A DNA stretch of 64,000 nucleotides from Enteractinococcus helveticum (GTDB taxonomy: Bacteria > Actinomycetota > Actinomycetes > Actinomycetales > Micrococcaceae). Below the pieces are notes generated by a model. The model did no database searches. It was not told where the DNA came from and saw only the letters and a program-made list of their open reading frames with translations. Position 1 is the first letter of the stretch. Every line of letters begins with the position of its first letter. The stretch covers positions 124,001-188,000 of the forward strand of contig NZ_LXEY01000018.1 in the NCBI RefSeq assembly GCF_001657475.1, written 5' to 3'. Positions 38,647 to 47,343 of this stretch are shown here, piece by piece. The translations under genes and the position numbers were made by a program.

Positions 38647-39231
38647 GTGGTGCAAGAACCCGTGCGCAAAGCACGCACCGTGATGTCCGAATCGGATATA
38701 AATCGGGTCCTCACCCGCATCGCCCACGAGATCCTCGAGGGCAACCGCGGCGTTGAGAACCTGCTCATTTTAGGCATCCCACGCCGCGGTGTCCCGCTGG
38801 CCAATCGCCTGGCGGCCAAACTGGCAGAAATTGACCCAGCCTTCATCATCGAAGAACGCAGCGGGCAACTCGACATCACCCTCTACCGGGACGATCTGGC
38901 CCGCGCCGGATCGCGAGTACCCGCATCCACCATCATCCCGCCAGCCGGTGTTGATGACGCCGTGGTCGTACTCGTAGACGACGTCCTGTATTCCGGACGC
39001 ACCATCCGCGCAGCCCTGGATGCACTGTCTGCCATCGGGCGGCCACACACCGTGCGCCTAGCGGTCTTGGTTGACCGAGGGCATCGCCAGCTGCCCTTAC
39101 GTGCCGACTATGTGGGCAAGAACCTACCAACGGCGTCATCCGAACACGTCCGGGTCCATCTGGCCGAAATTGACGGCGACGAAGACTACTACACCACTGA
39201 CCAAGTACAAATCGTGGATGTGATGGACTAA
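38647..39231 (+). CDS. pyrR: Pyrimidine operon regulator / uracil phosphoribosyltransferase PyrR
   Basis: A 194-residue RNA-binding regulator with phosphoribosyltransferase fold. The PRPP-binding motif [18 protein letters not shown] (about 108-125), the hood region with [10 protein letters not shown] and [13 protein letters not shown] are typical. It should bind the hairpin just upstream when UMP is high. GTG 38647 (or GTG 38650) follows AAAGGAG. Its stop overlaps the pyrB start by one base. Confidence 0.95.
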
Positions 39232-40181
39232 TGCGACACCTACTGGCAACCAGAGACTTGTCCTATGACAACGCGCTAGCAATCCTCGACACCGCCCAGG
39301 AAATGGCCACGGTCTCGGATCGCTCCATCAAAAAGCTCCCGACCCTTCGCGGCCAGACCGTCGTCAACCTGTTCTTTGAAGACTCAACCCGCACCCGCAC
39401 CTCCTTTGAAGCCGCAGCCAAGCGCCTGTCGGCTGACGTATTGAACTTCGCGGTCAAAACCTCATCGGTGTCCAAGGGGGAGTCCCTGAAGGATACCGTC
39501 CAAACCCTTGAAGCCATCGGTGGCGATGCGATCGTTATGCGCCACTGGGCCTCCGGCGCCGCCCAACAGCTCGCGAATTTCGGTTGGTCATCATCGGCGG
39601 TCATTAACGCCGGCGATGGCACCCACGAACACCCAACCCAAGCGCTGCTGGATGCGTTCACCCTACGCAACCGTCTGTATGGTACCGAAGCCACCGGCAA
39701 AGACCTCAACGGCCTGCACGTGGTGATCGTCGGCGACATCCTGCACTCCCGGGTGGCGCGTTCAAATGTGTGGTTACTGCACACCCTGGGGGCCAAAGTC
39801 TCATTGTCCGGGCCACCGACCCTCATGCCGGTGGGTGTCAACACCTGGCCGGTTGACGTCAACTACGACCTCGATGCTCTGCTGGCACAACGTGTCGACG
39901 CCGTCATGATGTTGCGCGTTCAAGCCGAGCGCATGGCCGGAGCCTTTTTCCCCTCACCAGCCGAATACACTCGCGGCTGGGGGCTGACCAACGACCGGTA
40001 TCAGACCATTGCCGGAACCGACACGCTGATCATGCACCCGGGGCCCATGAACCGCGGGTTAGAGATTTCCGCGGCAGCCGCCGATTCAGCACAAAACACC
40101 GCACTTGAACAAGTTGCCAATGGCGTCTCTGTGCGCATGGCAGTCCTCTACCTGCTCCTGGCAGGCCAACTAGGGCAATGA
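39231..40181 (+). CDS. pyrB: Aspartate carbamoyltransferase catalytic subunit
   Basis: The 316-residue enzyme condenses carbamoyl phosphate with aspartate. The carbamoyl-phosphate site [14 protein letters not shown] (about 47-60), [10 protein letters not shown] (about 133) and the C-terminal HPGPMNRG (about 265) are complete. No regulatory subunit (pyrI) is present, as usual in actinobacteria. The ATG shares its first base with the pyrR stop, so the two are translationally coupled. Confidence 0.97.
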
Positions 40182-40192
40182 AAGGCCAATTA

Positions 40193-41518
40193 ATGACTCA
40201 TACCTATGTGATTACCGGTGGCACCACCCCCGACGGCGTGCAGACCGACGTGGCCATTGACGCCAACGGCAGCATTGCCCAACTTGGCCAACAACTTGCC
40301 ACCGACGGCGCCGAGGTAATCGACGCTACCGGCAAGATTGTGCTGCCCGGACTTGTAGACCTGCACACCCACCTCCGCGAGCCCGGCAACGACGACGCCG
40401 AAACCGTAGAAACCGGTACCCGAGCCGCAGCCAAAGGCGGATTCACCGCCGTTCATGCGATGGCCAACTCCAACCCGGTGGCCGACACCGCCGGTGTCGT
40501 AGAACAAGTGCACCGACTCGGTCGCGCTTCTGGCTGGACCGACGTCTACCCGGTGGGGGCCGTAACCGTAGGCCTGAAAGGCGAACAGCTGGCCGAAATC
40601 TCCGCCATGCACGATTCGGCCGCCAAGGTCACCATGTTCTCCGATGACGGCATGTGCGTCTGGGATCCCGTGTTGATGCGCAGAGCCTTGGAATACGTGA
40701 AATCCTTCGACGGATTCATCGCCCAACACGCCCAAGAACCGCGCCTGACCGAGGGCGCACAGATGAATGAATCTGCACTCTCATCGGAGCTCGGCCTGGC
40801 AGGCTGGCCCGCCGTCGCCGAAGAATCCATCATCGCCCGAGACGTATTGCTGGCCCAGCACGTAAATTCTCGTGTACATATTTGCCACGTCTCCACCGCA
40901 GGATCGGTTGAGCTGATCCGCTGGGCCAAATCCCAAGGCATCAACGTCACCGCCGAAGTCACCCCGCACCACTTATTACTCACCGAGGACTACGTCAAAA
41001 CCTATGACCCGGTCTATAAAGTGAACCCTCCACTGCGCAAAGACTCCGACGTCCACGCGCTGCGCCAAGGCCTGGCCGATGGCACGATTGACACGGTTGG
41101 CACCGATCACGCACCACACACCGCAGAGACCAAACAATGCGAGTGGGTCGTAGCAGCCATGGGCATGACCGGACTGGAAACCGCACTGCCCGTCATTCAG
41201 CACACCATGATCGACACCGGCCTGCTCGACTGGCATGCGGTTGCACGTGTGATGTCGGTCAATCCGGCACGCATTTACCGCCATGCCGACCAGGGCCAAC
41301 TCACAGACACCGGTAGTCTGGTACAGGGCGCAGTGGCGAACCTGGCCATCTACGACCCAAGCCACACCTTTGTGGTCAACCCGGCCCAGCACGCTTCAAA
41401 ATCCGCCAACTCGCCGTATAAAGACATGGAGCTGTCCGGACAAGTAACCGACGTGTTCTATCGCGGACACCGCGTCGTTGCCGAGGCCGAGCTGACCACA
41501 CCGTACCAACACAGCTAA
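40193..41518 (+). CDS. pyrC: Dihydroorotase
   Basis: A 441-residue class I amidohydrolase that cyclises carbamoyl-aspartate. The metal-binding DLHTHLREPG is at about 60-69, further histidines are in HVSTAGS and TPHHLLL, and the late metal Asp is in GTDHAPHT (about 306). Two starts are possible: ATG 40178, which overlaps pyrB by four bases, and ATG 40193, which has AAAGG (40181-40185) upstream and matches the family start; I prefer the second. Confidence 0.96.
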   Translation: MTHTYVITGGTTPDGVQTDVAIDANGSIAQLGQQLATDGAEVIDATGKIVLPGLVDLHTHLREPGNDDAETVETGTRAAAKGGFTAVHAMANSNPVADTAGVVEQVHRLGRASGWTDVYPVGAVTVGLKGEQLAEISAMHDSAAKVTMFSDDGMCVWDPVLMRRALEYVKSFDGFIAQHAQEPRLTEGAQMNESALSSELGLAGWPAVAEESIIARDVLLAQHVNSRVHICHVSTAGSVELIRWAKSQGINVTAEVTPHHLLLTEDYVKTYDPVYKVNPPLRKDSDVHALRQGLADGTIDTVGTDHAPHTAETKQCEWVVAAMGMTGLETALPVIQHTMIDTGLLDWHAVARVMSVNPARIYRHADQGQLTDTGSLVQGAVANLAIYDPSHTFVVNPAQHASKSANSPYKDMELSGQVTDVFYRGHRVVAEAELTTPYQHS

Positions 41519-41534: not shown

Positions 41535-42044
41535 TTGGACGAGACAACATTTATTGTCACCCTGACCTCAGCCATTGTTGTGCTGATGATCCTCGGGATC
41601 ATCTTCGGACGTCGCAACCGCACCAAACGACAACAATACGTCCCTATACCGCATGAGGTTCCTGCAGCACTGTTGGAAAAACAACCACAAACCGCTGTAG
41701 AAGGCACCTATGTCTCGACCGTGTTGGGCCAAGAACTCCTAGAACGCGTGACCGCCCACCGCCTGGGCAACCCCGCCGAAGCACAAATCGAAGTGCATCA
41801 CGACGGCGTTGCTCTGCTGCGCGCTGGTGAACCCAATATCTTCATCCCCACCGCAGACCTCGTCACGGTCTCCACGGTTTCGGGCATCGCCGGCAAATTC
41901 GTTGAAAAAGACGGAATCCTGGCCATCACCTGGAACCTCGGCGACGTCGAAGTCACCACCGGACTGCGCATCGAATCCATCACCGCACATCAACAACTTC
42001 TCACCGCACTAGAACAACTTACGAACGGAAGGCAGACCGCATGA
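41535..42044 (+). CDS. Membrane protein with PH-like domain in the pyr operon
   Basis: A 169-residue protein with one N-terminal membrane helix (about 6-27, IVTLTSAIVVLMILGIIFG), a basic stop-transfer patch RRNRTKR, and a soluble cytoplasmic domain of mainly beta strands (about 50-165). It occupies the place of mycobacterial Rv1382 and of the PH-like domain proteins between pyrC and carA in streptomycetes, so the link with pyrimidine synthesis is conserved though its role is unknown. TTG 41535 follows AAGGAAG. The stop overlaps the carA ATG by four bases. Confidence 0.85.
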   Translation: MDETTFIVTLTSAIVVLMILGIIFGRRNRTKRQQYVPIPHEVPAALLEKQPQTAVEGTYVSTVLGQELLERVTAHRLGNPAEAQIEVHHDGVALLRAGEPNIFIPTADLVTVSTVSGIAGKFVEKDGILAITWNLGDVEVTTGLRIESITAHQQLLTALEQLTNGRQTA

Positions 42045-43165
42045 GCGCATCAGCCAAACTTGTCCTGGCAGATGGCACCATCTACGCCGGCACCACCTAT
42101 GCAGCAACCGGTACCGTCTTTGGGCAGCTGGTCTTTGACACCACCATGACCGGTTATCAGCACAGTCTGACCAACCCAGCCAATGCACACACGCTGATGG
42201 TCTTGACCTTCCCGCACATCGGTAACGTCGGTGTCAATGACGCCGAAGCCGAATCAAACGCGTATTGGCCAGCCGGCGTGATCATCCGCGAACCGGCCCG
42301 GATACGGTCCAACTGGCAGTCAGAACGTGACCTGGACGCTGATCTCACCGCCGCCGGTGTGGTCGGCATCGCCGGAATCGACACGCGAGCACTCACCCGA
42401 CGCATCGCTGGCGCCGGGCAAGTGGCCGCCGGGATATTTGCCGGTGACGACGCCCAAGCCGCCGACGCCGAGCTGGTCGCCCAAGTCCAGAACTGGTCAC
42501 AACCTGCCACCGAACAACTCCTGGCTGAAGTCACCACCGGCACCGCCTACGAGGTCGCCGCCGATACACCGCAACACACCGTCGCGCTGATCGACCTGGG
42601 CGTGCGCCGTTCCACCATCAATCAGCTGGTGCAGCGTGGCAACACCGTCAAGGTGCTACCGGCAAGCGCCACCGCTGACGATATCGTGGCAGCCAAGGTT
42701 GACGGCGTGGTCTTCTCCTCTGGCCCAGGTAACCCAGCAGAAGCCACCGCACAAATCGACCTTGCCACCGCCCTGCTGGATGCCAAGACCCCACTATTGG
42801 GTATCGGGCTAGGCCACCAGATTATCGCTCGGGCACTGGGATATGACACCGCATTGCTAGCCCAGGCCCAGCGTGGTCCCAATCAGCCGGTCTATGATGT
42901 GGCCTCCGGGCAGAGCATCATCACCTCCCAGAACCACCAGTACGCCGTCGTCGCCCCGCAAGGCACCGCTACCGCACCGAACGCCACCTACGGCGAGGTG
43001 ACCGTGACCCAGTACAGCCTCAACGACCAATCAGTCGAAGCGCTACGCGCCGAGGCGCTGCCGGTGGTCACCGTGCAGTACTACCCAGAAAACACCGCCA
43101 TTACCGTAACCGAAGCACACCCGGTCTTCGATACGTTCGCAGTCCTGATGGCCACCGGAAAATAA
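42041..43165 (+). CDS. carA: Carbamoyl-phosphate synthase small subunit with degenerate glutaminase site
   Basis: The 374-residue protein aligns over its full length with CarA: N-terminal domain (1-150) with FDTTMTGYQ and GVVGIAGIDTRALTRR, then a class I glutamine amidotransferase domain (about 178-370). That domain should release ammonia from glutamine, but the triad is broken. The nucleophile motif G-I-C-L-G-H-Q reads GIGLGHQ (Gly256), and V-Q-Y-H-P-E reads VQYYPE (Tyr348); only Glu350 remains. By alignment with E. coli CarA, Ser47 is Ala47, Lys202 is Arg189, and the K-x-x-x-G-H-[RH]-G segment is ALLAQAQRG. The frame is undamaged and coupled to both neighbours. The protein probably still folds and supports CarB structurally. 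Confidence 0.9.
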   Translation: MSASAKLVLADGTIYAGTTYAATGTVFGQLVFDTTMTGYQHSLTNPANAHTLMVLTFPHIGNVGVNDAEAESNAYWPAGVIIREPARIRSNWQSERDLDADLTAAGVVGIAGIDTRALTRRIAGAGQVAAGIFAGDDAQAADAELVAQVQNWSQPATEQLLAEVTTGTAYEVAADTPQHTVALIDLGVRRSTINQLVQRGNTVKVLPASATADDIVAAKVDGVVFSSGPGNPAEATAQIDLATALLDAKTPLLGIGLGHQIIARALGYDTALLAQAQRGPNQPVYDVASGQSIITSQNHQYAVVAPQGTATAPNATYGEVTVTQYSLNDQSVEALRAEALPVVTVQYYPENTAITVTEAHPVFDTFAVLMATGK

Positions 43166-43185: not shown

Positions 43186-46100
43186 ATGCCAAAACGCACA
43201 GATCTCAAATCCGTATTAGTCATCGGCTCCGGTCCCATCGTGATCGGCCAGGCCGCCGAATTCGACTACTCAGGAACCCAAGCCATCCGGGTGCTCAAAG
43301 AAGAAGGCATCCGCGTGGTGCTGGTCAACTCCAACCCGGCCACCATCATGACCGACCCGGAAATGGCCGATGCAACCTACGTTGAGCCCATCACCGCCGA
43401 CGTCGTCGAGAAAATCATCGCAGCCGAGCGCCCCGATGCGATCCTGCCGACCCTGGGCGGGCAAACCGCACTGAACACCGCTATCCAACTGGATGAACGC
43501 GGCGTATTAGAAAAATACGACGTCGAACTCATCGGCGCCAACATTGCCGCGATCGAATTGGGCGAAGACCGCGAACAGTTCAAAGGTGTTGTTGAACGTT
43601 GCGGTGCCGAATCTGCCCGCTCCGTGATTGTTCACTCCATGGATGAGGCCCTGGAAGCCTCCAAGGAACTGGGCTACCCAATGGTCGTGCGCCCATCATT
43701 CACCATGGGTGGACTCGGCTCGGGCATGGCCTATAACGAAGCCGACCTGCACCGCATCGCCGGCGCTGGCATCCAGTACTCTCCAACCTCCGAAGTCTTA
43801 TTAGAAGAATCCATCCTGGGGTGGAAAGAATACGAATTCGAAATGATGCGCGACAGTGCTGACAACGTCATCGCATTGTGCTCGATCGAAAACTTCGACC
43901 CGGTGGGCGTGCACACCGGAGATGCCATCACCGTGGCACCAGCTGTGACCCTAACGGATACTGAATTCGCCAAGATGCGCGACATCTCCATCAAGATCAT
44001 CCGTGAAGTCGGCGTGGCCACCGGTGGCTGTAACATTCAGTTCGCCGTCAATCCCGAAGACGGCCGCATCGTCGTCATCGAAATGAACCCCCGCGTCTCG
44101 CGGTCCTCGGCACTTGCTTCCAAAGCCACCGGGTACCCTATCGCCAAAATCGCGACCAAACTGTCGCTGGGCTACACCCTGGATGAGGTGCTCAACGACG
44201 TCACCGGCACCACAACCGCCGCGTTTGAACCGGCACTGGACTATGTGGTCGTCAAAGTCCCGCGCTTTGCGTTTGAGAAATTCCCGGCCGCTGATGCCAC
44301 CCTGACCACGACCATGAAGGCCGTGGGCGAGGTCATGTCCTTTGGCCGCAACTTCTCCGAGGCCCTGCAAAAGGCGCTGCGCTCTTTGGAACAGACCAAC
44401 GACGCCGAACTGGATTTCACCGTGCCAGACGCCGCAGAAGTTGCCCAGCTACTGGAAGCCGCGAAAACTGCCACGACATCGCGTCTAGGCCAGATCCAGC
44501 GTGCACTGCTTGGGGGAGCGACCCCACAGGAGATCTTTGACATCACCATGATCGATCCGTGGTTCATTGATCAGTTGGTGTTGATCAATGAAGTGGCCAC
44601 CGATATTCGCAACGGCGATGAACTGACCAAAGACCTGCTGATTCACGCCAAACGCCATGGCTTTTCCGATCAACAAATCGGCCAGCTGCGACATATGGAC
44701 GAGGCCGTCGTCCGCGGCGTCCGCCACGCGCTGGGCGTGCGTCCGGTCTATAAATCCGTTGACACTGCCGCCGGTGAACACCTCGCTCAGGCGCCGTACC
44801 ACTACTCGTCCTACGACGGCACCGAAACCGAAATCACCGAACACACCCGACCAACCGCGATCATCCTGGGCTCGGGACCAAACCGCATTGGTCAGGGTGT
44901 GGAGTTCGACTACTCGTGTGTGCACGCGACCATGGCCATGCAACAGGCCGGCTATGACACCGTATTGGTCAACTGTAACCCGGAAACGGTTTCGACCGAC
45001 TCGGATATGTCCGATCGTCTGTACTTCGAACCCTTGACACTGGAAGACGTGCTGGAAATCATCCACGCCGAAGAACAAACCGGTCCGGTCGAAGGAGTCT
45101 TTGTCCAGCTCGGTGGGCAGACGCCGTTGAAGCTGGCCCAAGATCTCGCCGATGCTGGCGTGACTATTCTGGGTACCTCACCGGAAGCCATTGATCTGGC
45201 CGAACACCGCGGCCTGTTCTCCCAGGTGCTACAAGAAGCCGGACTGACCGCACCAAAGAACGGCACCGCGGTTTCTTTTGAAGATGCCAAGGCCGTTGCC
45301 GATGAAATCGGCTACCCGGTGCTGGTGCGTCCATCCTATGTGCTGGGCGGCCGCGGTATGGAAATCGTCTACGACGAAGCCCAGCTGGAGTCCTACATTG
45401 AAAACTCCACGGCAGAAATCACCGCCGAACACCCGGTGCTGGTTGACCGGTTCCTCGACGACGCCATCGAGATCGACGTCGATGCCCTGTATGACGGCCA
45501 TGAACTGTTCATGGGCGGCATTATGGAACACATCGAAGAAGCCGGGGTGCACTCTGGTGACTCCGCGTGTGTCCTGCCCCCAACCACACTGGCACCCGAT
45601 GTGTTGGCCCGGGTGCGTGAAGCAACCGAAGCCATCGCCAAGGGCGTGGGCGTGCGCGGTTTGATCAACATCCAATTCGCGCTGGCCGCTGATATCCTCT
45701 ACGTCATCGAGGCCAACCCGCGTGCATCTCGGACCGTGCCATTCGTTTCGAAAGCCACCGGTGTGGCACTGGCGAAAGCTGCAGCCAAGATTGGTGTCGG
45801 ATCTACCATCGCTCAACTGCGTGAAACCGGGGATCTGCCGGCCACCCACGACGGCTGGTCGCTGCCGCTTGGCGCGCCGATCGCCGTCAAAGAAGCCGTT
45901 TTGCCATTCACCCGCTTCCGCACGCCCGAAGGCCGCGTTGTGGACTCCCTGCTGGGACCAGAAATGCGTTCGACCGGTGAGGTCATGGGCATCGATAAGT
46001 ACTTCGACACCGCCTATGCCAAATCTCAAGACGCCGTTGGCGGCCGTTTGCCAACCGGTGGACGCGTGTTCGTGTCGGTAGCCAACCGCGATAAACGTGG

Positions 46101-46494
46101 CATCGTGGCCCACGCCAAACGTCTGACTGATATGGGCTTTGAGCTCGTGTCAACCGGTGGAACAGCTGATGTGCTGGCTCGCAACGGCATTACCACAGAG
46201 ATCGTGGACAAGATCACCAGTGATGTTGAAACCACCGGTGAAACGATCCTGGACCAATTAGAAGACGGTCGCGTAGATCTGGTGATCAACACCCCATCGG
46301 GTTCTGACGCCCGTGGTGACGGTTACGAGATCCGAGCCGCTGCGAACTCGCTTGGTGTGCCACTGGTGACCACCTTGGCCGCGGTCGGTACCGCGCTGCA
46401 GGCCATCCAGGCACAGCGTGAGTACTCCTGGGACGTCACCAGCTTGCAAGAACATGATCGCCGTTTGGCCGAAGTCATCAAGAACCAGCAGTAG
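43186..46494 (+). CDS. carB: Carbamoyl-phosphate synthase large subunit
   Basis: A 1102-residue enzyme making carbamoyl phosphate from bicarbonate, ammonia and two ATP. The two homologous ATP-grasp halves (about 1-400 and 550-940) both look intact, with [19 protein letters not shown] and [38 protein letters not shown] and [19 protein letters not shown]. The allosteric MGS-like domain with [11 protein letters not shown] is at the C-terminus. Normal length. Because the partner CarA seems unable to hydrolyse glutamine, this subunit is predicted to use free ammonia. ATG 43186 follows TTAGGAAAC, 20 bases after carA; pyrF follows six bases later. Confidence 0.97.
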
Positions 46495-46500
46495 GAAGCC

Positions 46501-47343
46501 ATGTCACAGCCATTTGGAAGTCGTCTTGCCCAAGCCATGGACCACCACGGTCCACTGTGTTTGGGTATCGACCCACACCGCCAGTTGTTGAACGCCTGGG
46601 GTCTCAATGACGACCCGGCTGGGCTGGCAACCTTTTCTAAAATCGTCATCGAAGCCGCATCCGAAACCACCGGAGTCGCTGCCCTGAAACCACAGGTCGC
46701 ACTCTATGAGCGGTTCGGCTCGGCGGGCTTCGCGGTATTGGAAGAGACACTGCAGTTGGCACGTGAAGCAAACATCCTCACGATCGCCGACGCCAAACGC
46801 GGCGATATCGGATCCACCATGGAAGGGTACGCACAAGCGTGGCTTGCTGACGGGTCAGCATTAGCCGCTGACGCGGTGACCCTGACGGCATACTTGGGCT
46901 ATGAATCGTTGCGTCCGGCAATCGATCTAGCCTTATCCCATGACAGGGGTGTGTTCGTCCTGGCCTTGACCTCGAATCCCGAAGGGGCATCTGTTCAACA
47001 TCTTGGTCCCCAAGGTGACTCCGTTGCCAAGAGAATTGTCGATGCCACAGCGCAAGATAATGCAACGGTCACAGGCCTTGGATCCATCGGATTAGTCATT
47101 GGCGCAACCGTTATAGACGATGCCAAAGCACTCAATATTGATCTGGTTAGGGCAAACGCGCCCATTCTTGCACCAGGGTACGGGGCTCAAGGCGCACAGG
47201 CAGCAGATATGCGGGAGGGCTTCGGCGAGGCTTGGAAGAACGTCCTAGTCAACTCGTCACGTGGCATCTTGCAACACGGGCCCGAAGTAGCGGACCTTAA
47301 GTCGGCTATAGACGACGCCCGCAAAGACATCAATGTGAAGTAG
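46501..47343 (+). CDS. pyrF: Orotidine 5'-phosphate decarboxylase (type 2)
   Basis: A 280-residue enzyme making UMP, the last step of the pathway. It is of the longer type 2 (mycobacterial) class: CLGIDPHRQLLNAWG near the start, KPQVALYERFGSAGF (about 63), and the catalytic DAKRGDIGSTMEGYAQAW (about 97-114) with the Lys-Asp pair. ATG 46501 begins six bases after the carB stop behind TAGGAAGCC. pyrD and pyrE are not in the window. Confidence 0.96.
   Translation: MSQPFGSRLAQAMDHHGPLCLGIDPHRQLLNAWGLNDDPAGLATFSKIVIEAASETTGVAALKPQVALYERFGSAGFAVLEETLQLAREANILTIADAKRGDIGSTMEGYAQAWLADGSALAADAVTLTAYLGYESLRPAIDLALSHDRGVFVLALTSNPEGASVQHLGPQGDSVAKRIVDATAQDNATVTGLGSIGLVIGATVIDDAKALNIDLVRANAPILAPGYGAQGAQAADMREGFGEAWKNVLVNSSRGILQHGPEVADLKSAIDDARKDINVK

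Follow-up and report, generated by a model that had tools for sequence, protein, structure and literature searches.

A small subunit of carbamoyl-phosphate synthetase without its glutaminase residues, and a predicted turn to ammonia, in Enteractinococcus and Yaniella

Throughout the genus Enteractinococcus/Yaniella (hereafter the genus), the small subunit of carbamoyl-phosphate synthetase (CPS), CarA, lacks residues of the known Cys-His mechanism of glutamine hydrolysis, is maintained by selection and is accompanied by an ordinary large subunit, CarB. It is likely that this CPS is ammonia-dependent, with a small subunit that is unable to hydrolyse glutamine and is kept as a structural component, as part of a lineage-wide switch. 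This reading is inferred from sequence, as the activity of the complex, its Km for ammonia and the intracellular ammonia have not been measured. The case comes from a stretch of 64,000 nucleotides of Enteractinococcus helveticum, here called the window, whose features are collected in Table 1 with those of other loci.

CarA and its operon

The carA gene of the window encodes 374 amino acids from ATG to stop. Its product matches the TIGR01368 profile over its full length with 327 bits (cut-off 307.35), keeps the domain signatures of PF00988 (N-terminal, CarB-contacting) and PF00117, and can be aligned from end to end with the solved small subunit of E. coli (E about 1e-60). Gly256 lies in the motif GIGLGHQ and Tyr348 in VQYYPE. 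CarA residues are otherwise numbered as in E. coli CarA; the E. coli CarA and CarB sequences served for numbering, and the key CarA columns match the database alignment. Glu355 and Gln273 are retained in all CarA compared (8 from the genus and 34 from outgroups), and the outgroup-conserved G313 (G in 34/34) is replaced by A, E, H or Q in all eight proteins of the genus. The carB gene adjoins carA, so that paired small and large subunits are present, and the two genes are not fused. Thus, among the criteria for a glutamine-hydrolysing CPS small subunit, the profile match and the adjacent carB are met while Cys269 and His353 are not (Glu355 is kept).

Most of what a reading made from the sequence alone had claimed was confirmed. 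In particular, it had proposed that the nucleophile Cys is replaced by Gly256, the catalytic His by Tyr348 and Lys202 by Arg189, that the conserved G-H-[RH]-G segment is changed, that the frame is unbroken and coupled by four bases to the upstream gene, and that carB and the pyr operon are normal, and all of these points held upon alignment to E. coli CarA and comparison across the genus (Table 1). It had also judged sequencing error unlikely, and indeed the same changes in eight separate genomes exclude it. Its Ala47 at the position of Ser47 is true of the window CarA but failed as a shared change: Ser is still found in four of the eight genus members, and this substitution was rejected as an element of the common loss. 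An AlphaFold model of CarA (7 close sequences) was poor, with a mean pLDDT of 57, and was left unused.

Table 1. Coordinates of the features discussed; plain positions refer to the window, prefixed ones to the locus so labelled
Feature	Position	Strand	Basis
carA, CPS small subunit with non-catalytic GATase domain	42041..43165	+	TIGR01368, PF00988 + PF00117, unbroken frame
Gly256 codon, nucleophile position (E. coli Cys269)	42806..42808	+	Gly in 8/8 genus, Cys in 34/34 outgroup
Tyr348 codon, catalytic His position (E. coli His353)	43082..43084	+	Tyr in 8/8 genus, His in 34/34 outgroup
Arg189 codon, position of E. coli Lys202	42605..42607	+	Arg in 8/8 genus, Lys in 34/34 outgroup
QAQRGPNQPV, changed version of the FGHHGGNHPV segment	42863..42892	+	alignments to E. 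coli CarA and inside the genus
carB, ordinary large (synthetase) subunit	43186..46494	+	TIGR01369 1388 bits; normal place in Micrococcaceae tree; dN/dS 0.015-0.028
Bacterial PH-domain-like gene between pyrC and carA, 4-base overlap with carA	41535..42044	+	PF25362 8.7e-31
pyrR, pyrB, pyrC of the pyr operon	38647..41518	+	ORFs; PF00156, PF02729/PF00185, PF01979
pyrF	46501..47343	+	PF00215
GuaA, window's genome, glutaminase Cys and His lost	L104:4407-5996	+	
PurQ, window's genome, glutaminase Cys and His lost	L120:1387-2121	-	
PabAB, window's genome, PabA part without glutaminase Cys and His	L103:2816-4789	-	
N-acetylglutaminylglutamine amidotransferase (osmolyte synthesis), N-terminal catalytic Cys replaced in G000 and G001	L137:199-1974	-	

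Distribution, origin and selection

No second carA, intact or otherwise, was found by a search of the window's genome. The genus provides eight full-length carA genes, including those of Enteractinococcus coprophilus, Yaniella halotolerans and several Yaniella MAGs among the named records; a ninth genome is 71% complete and its carA is split at contig ends, which leaves it outside the eight. All eight carry both GIGLGHQ and VQYYPE, and the remaining genus proteins are 68-87% identical to the window CarA. Conversely, Cys and His are both present in 34/34 CarA of other Micrococcaceae and Micrococcales genera, and across 197 Micrococcaceae genomes, searched with the codon motif of GIGLGHQ, the Gly motif in CarA is confined to Enteractinococcus/Yaniella. 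Stray matches of the codon motif in two genomes (G160, G165) yielded no frame of an amidotransferase and were attributed to chance. Since the loss is found in 8/8 CarA inside the genus and in 0/34 outside, it is old and fixed.

The comparison with relatives assigns the loss to the stem branch of the genus, inside which there is no close relative with an intact triad. In the CarA tree the genus forms a single clade on a very long stem, with 2.1 and 1.0 changes per column on either side of the midpoint root (about 3 to the outgroups), whereas in the tree of CarB (first 460 residues) it falls inside the Micrococcaceae as the sister of genome G024, with a stem of 0.23. CarA therefore underwent fast change, and the operon was not acquired from elsewhere. 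Positions that are near-invariant in the outgroups have been lost at 25 of 88 sites in the GATase domain of CarA versus 7 of 53 in its N-terminal domain, and at 8 of 260 in the first part of CarB. Inside the genus, dN/dS is 0.085-0.145 for CarA (about 0.09-0.15, far below 1) and 0.109 for its GATase domain, the corresponding values for CarB being those given in Table 1. CarA is thus under purifying selection in the genus. A pseudogene was rejected on the grounds of these values and of a frame that is unbroken in all eight full-length copies, with no sign of relaxed selection. All in all, CarA is best regarded as a protein that has probably lost one former function while still being selected for another.

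An independent case is represented by G038, a complete genome from another family of the same order, Micrococcales. Its carA (L096:3016-3447) comprises about 136 codons and encodes the N-terminal domain only, the whole glutaminase domain having been deleted; carB overlaps the short carA, no other carA is present in the complete genome, and GuaA is intact. As far as activity can be inferred from sequence, Micrococcales have likely abandoned the glutaminase activity of CPS on at least two occasions, in the genus and, by deletion, in G038, and CarA is therefore kept for something besides that activity.

Other amidotransferases of the genus

That the loss extends to the whole genus, and that other amidotransferases have lost their glutaminase sites too, goes beyond what the sequence-only reading had claimed. 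The starting point was a search of class-I amidotransferases across the genus, which led to GuaA. Its site is lost in 9/9 genomes, the nucleophile being Gly or Ser and both His and Glu being replaced, as indicated by alignment to solved GMP synthetases. The GATase domain of GuaA, at 109 bits, falls short of the cut-off of 172 (228 bits in the sister genome G024), and the synthetase domain scores 458 bits (464 in G024). In PurQ, GICNGFQ has become GLGNGFQ in all nine genomes (GVGNGFQ in one copy), and in the 8 complete copies Ser or Asn takes the place of the catalytic His. Cys, His and Glu are also gone from the PabA portion of a fused PabAB, as read in five genomes, one of whose proteins was aligned with the solved enzyme. 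As GuaA and TrpG/PabA are both intact in G024, at least the losses in CarA, GuaA and PabA occurred on the stem of the genus.

Among class-II enzymes, the N-acetylglutaminylglutamine amidotransferase begins with MLTAIAG or MLSAIAG in G000 and G001 and has no N-terminal Cys there, while in G003 and G005 the Cys may persist if translation begins one codon later; the loss is thus a partial case. An AsnB-like protein of G003 and G005 starts with MSAIV.

Other members have been spared. HisH keeps its Cys and the VQFHPE motif, gamma-glutamyl hydrolase types and a GICLGAQ protein also stay intact among the class-I GATases, and the N-terminal Cys is preserved in PurF. With 3-5 copies of glutamine synthetase per genome, glutamine is made, and loss of the synthetases as a cause was rejected. 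These findings count against the proposed switch, as the glutamine synthetases and the cysteines kept by HisH and PurF imply that some enzymes still use glutamine. In PurF (L153:727-2145, minus strand), the genus shows odd residues close to the glutamine site, the HNGN region reading FNGA or MNGA.

Ammonia as the predicted donor, its rivals and the missing enzymes

The sequence checks support the earlier claim of an ammonia-dependent CPS with CarA as a structural subunit, the activity itself being inferred. In this reading, CarB would take free NH3 directly, and CarA would have been retained for the sake of CarB, which would depend on it to assemble, to stay stable or to gate the ammonia path, by analogy with vertebrate CPS I. 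The change would be lineage-wide and would have occurred on the Enteractinococcus/Yaniella stem, where the glutaminase sites of GuaA, PurQ and PabA were lost and GlmS and PyrG dropped out. Its putative driver is abundant NH3 in ammonia-rich, alkaline habitats, where direct use of NH3 would spare the ATP spent by glutamine synthetase, and it is to such a life that the parallel losses may be due. The species of the window, evidently as strain UASWS1574, was obtained when bacteria were selected for high tolerance of ammonia, and growth of the genus spans pH 7-11 (PMC4966478). Alkaline soybean fermentations that generate ammonia are a reported source of Yaniella (PMC10056180), which, according to literature listings, also turns up in work on washed-rind cheese and on broiler litter. 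As is generally known, a CPS or GMP synthetase whose glutaminase is dead can still work with ammonia. That several unrelated amidotransferases have undergone such losses in a coordinated way suggests that, where ammonia is abundant, a cell can do without glutamine as the general donor of amide nitrogen.

Ammonia-dependent CPS is textbook knowledge for vertebrates; no description of an ammonia-dependent bacterial CPS bearing CarA was found in the literature searched. Vertebrate CPS I (CPS1), whose triad is incomplete, relies on free ammonia alone (PMC7657897), and the CarA of the genus similarly retains a GATase domain without a complete triad. However, CPS1 is a mitochondrial urea-cycle enzyme, made as a single fused chain and activated by N-acetylglutamate, whereas CarA is a separate subunit encoded in a bacterial pyr operon; moreover, the loss in the genus arose independently and was shared by other amidotransferases. 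With carA and carB unfused, the enzyme is not classed as a member of CPS I, though by analogy, its activity with NH3 being inferred, it probably works like one. With the bacterial glutamine-hydrolysing CarAB (CPS II; E. coli 1BXR/1C30) it shares the full-length CarA alignment, the same operon and a normal CarB, but it differs in the genus-wide replacement of Cys269, His353 and Lys202, and glutamine hydrolysis is predicted to be absent.

Among the rival explanations, the one that survives best, albeit as an unlikely one, is resistance to glutamine-mimicking antibiotics (DON, azaserine, acivicin) that hit these cysteines, ammonia use being a consequence rather than the driver. CarA, GuaA, PurQ and PabA, together with the missing PyrG and GlmS, do resemble the known targets of such compounds. 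This view is weakened because HisH and PurF, which are also hit by them, keep their cysteines, and the losses, far from being limited to the cysteine, also affect His, Glu and binding residues. Less credible still is another glutaminase acting in trans, a possibility also raised by the sequence-only reading, in which a class-I amidotransferase would dock on CarA/CarB or free ammonia nearby, leaving the complex glutamine-fed. The genus does retain the intact class-I GATases listed above, but these resemble members of their own families, no other amidotransferase gene adjoins carAB among the ORFs and domain matches around the operon, and the losses in GuaA, PurQ and PabA would require a common donor for all; the idea thus has no support, though it is not excluded. 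Finally, a CarA decaying towards loss, with CPS made dispensable by uptake of arginine and pyrimidines, would fit the strong divergence from relatives and the missing GATase domain of G038 but is all but ruled out by the unbroken frames, a dN/dS near 0.1 (about 0.02 for CarB) and the complete pyr operon around carA.

The ammonia-dependent reading can be extended to a bolder one, which is slightly less likely than not: in an entire free-living genus, free ammonia would have replaced glutamine in most nucleotide and cofactor aminations, at least four glutaminase sites would have been lost on a single stem branch, and CTP and glucosamine-6-phosphate would be made without CTP synthase and GlmS. 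CTP synthase (PF06418) has no match in 9/9 genus genomes and is matched in all 14 control genomes. The stretch tlyA-nadK-recN-(pyrG)-nudix-xerD-parA-scpA-scpB, in which the usual place of pyrG is that of M. tuberculosis, occurs in five genus genomes (read at L160:10890-11540, L161, L162, L163 and L167) but lacks pyrG there. CTP synthase itself accepts ammonia, so that ammonia use leaves the loss of the whole pyrG unexplained and raises the question of how CTP is formed in a free-living bacterium that lacks the enzyme; if the bolder reading is true, CTP would need an undescribed route or a strict dependence on external cytidine. GlmS, in turn, has no full match in any of the nine genomes, and NagB is found in eight of them. 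NagB may form glucosamine-6-phosphate from fructose-6-phosphate and ammonia in place of GlmS, the direction of the reaction being inferred; like the case of CarA, this would replace glutamine by ammonia in an essential amination, but its membership in the same switch is only inferred, and NagB is common in relatives too. Searches of the literature on CTP-synthase-less bacteria and on GlmS/NagB returned nothing on Enteractinococcus/Yaniella. In the genomes read, NagB adjoins ECF transporter genes. The NUDIX gene between recN and xerD (L160:10906-11530, G000:C18) seems interrupted in the window's genome, with no single open frame, and is intact in four other genomes of the genus.
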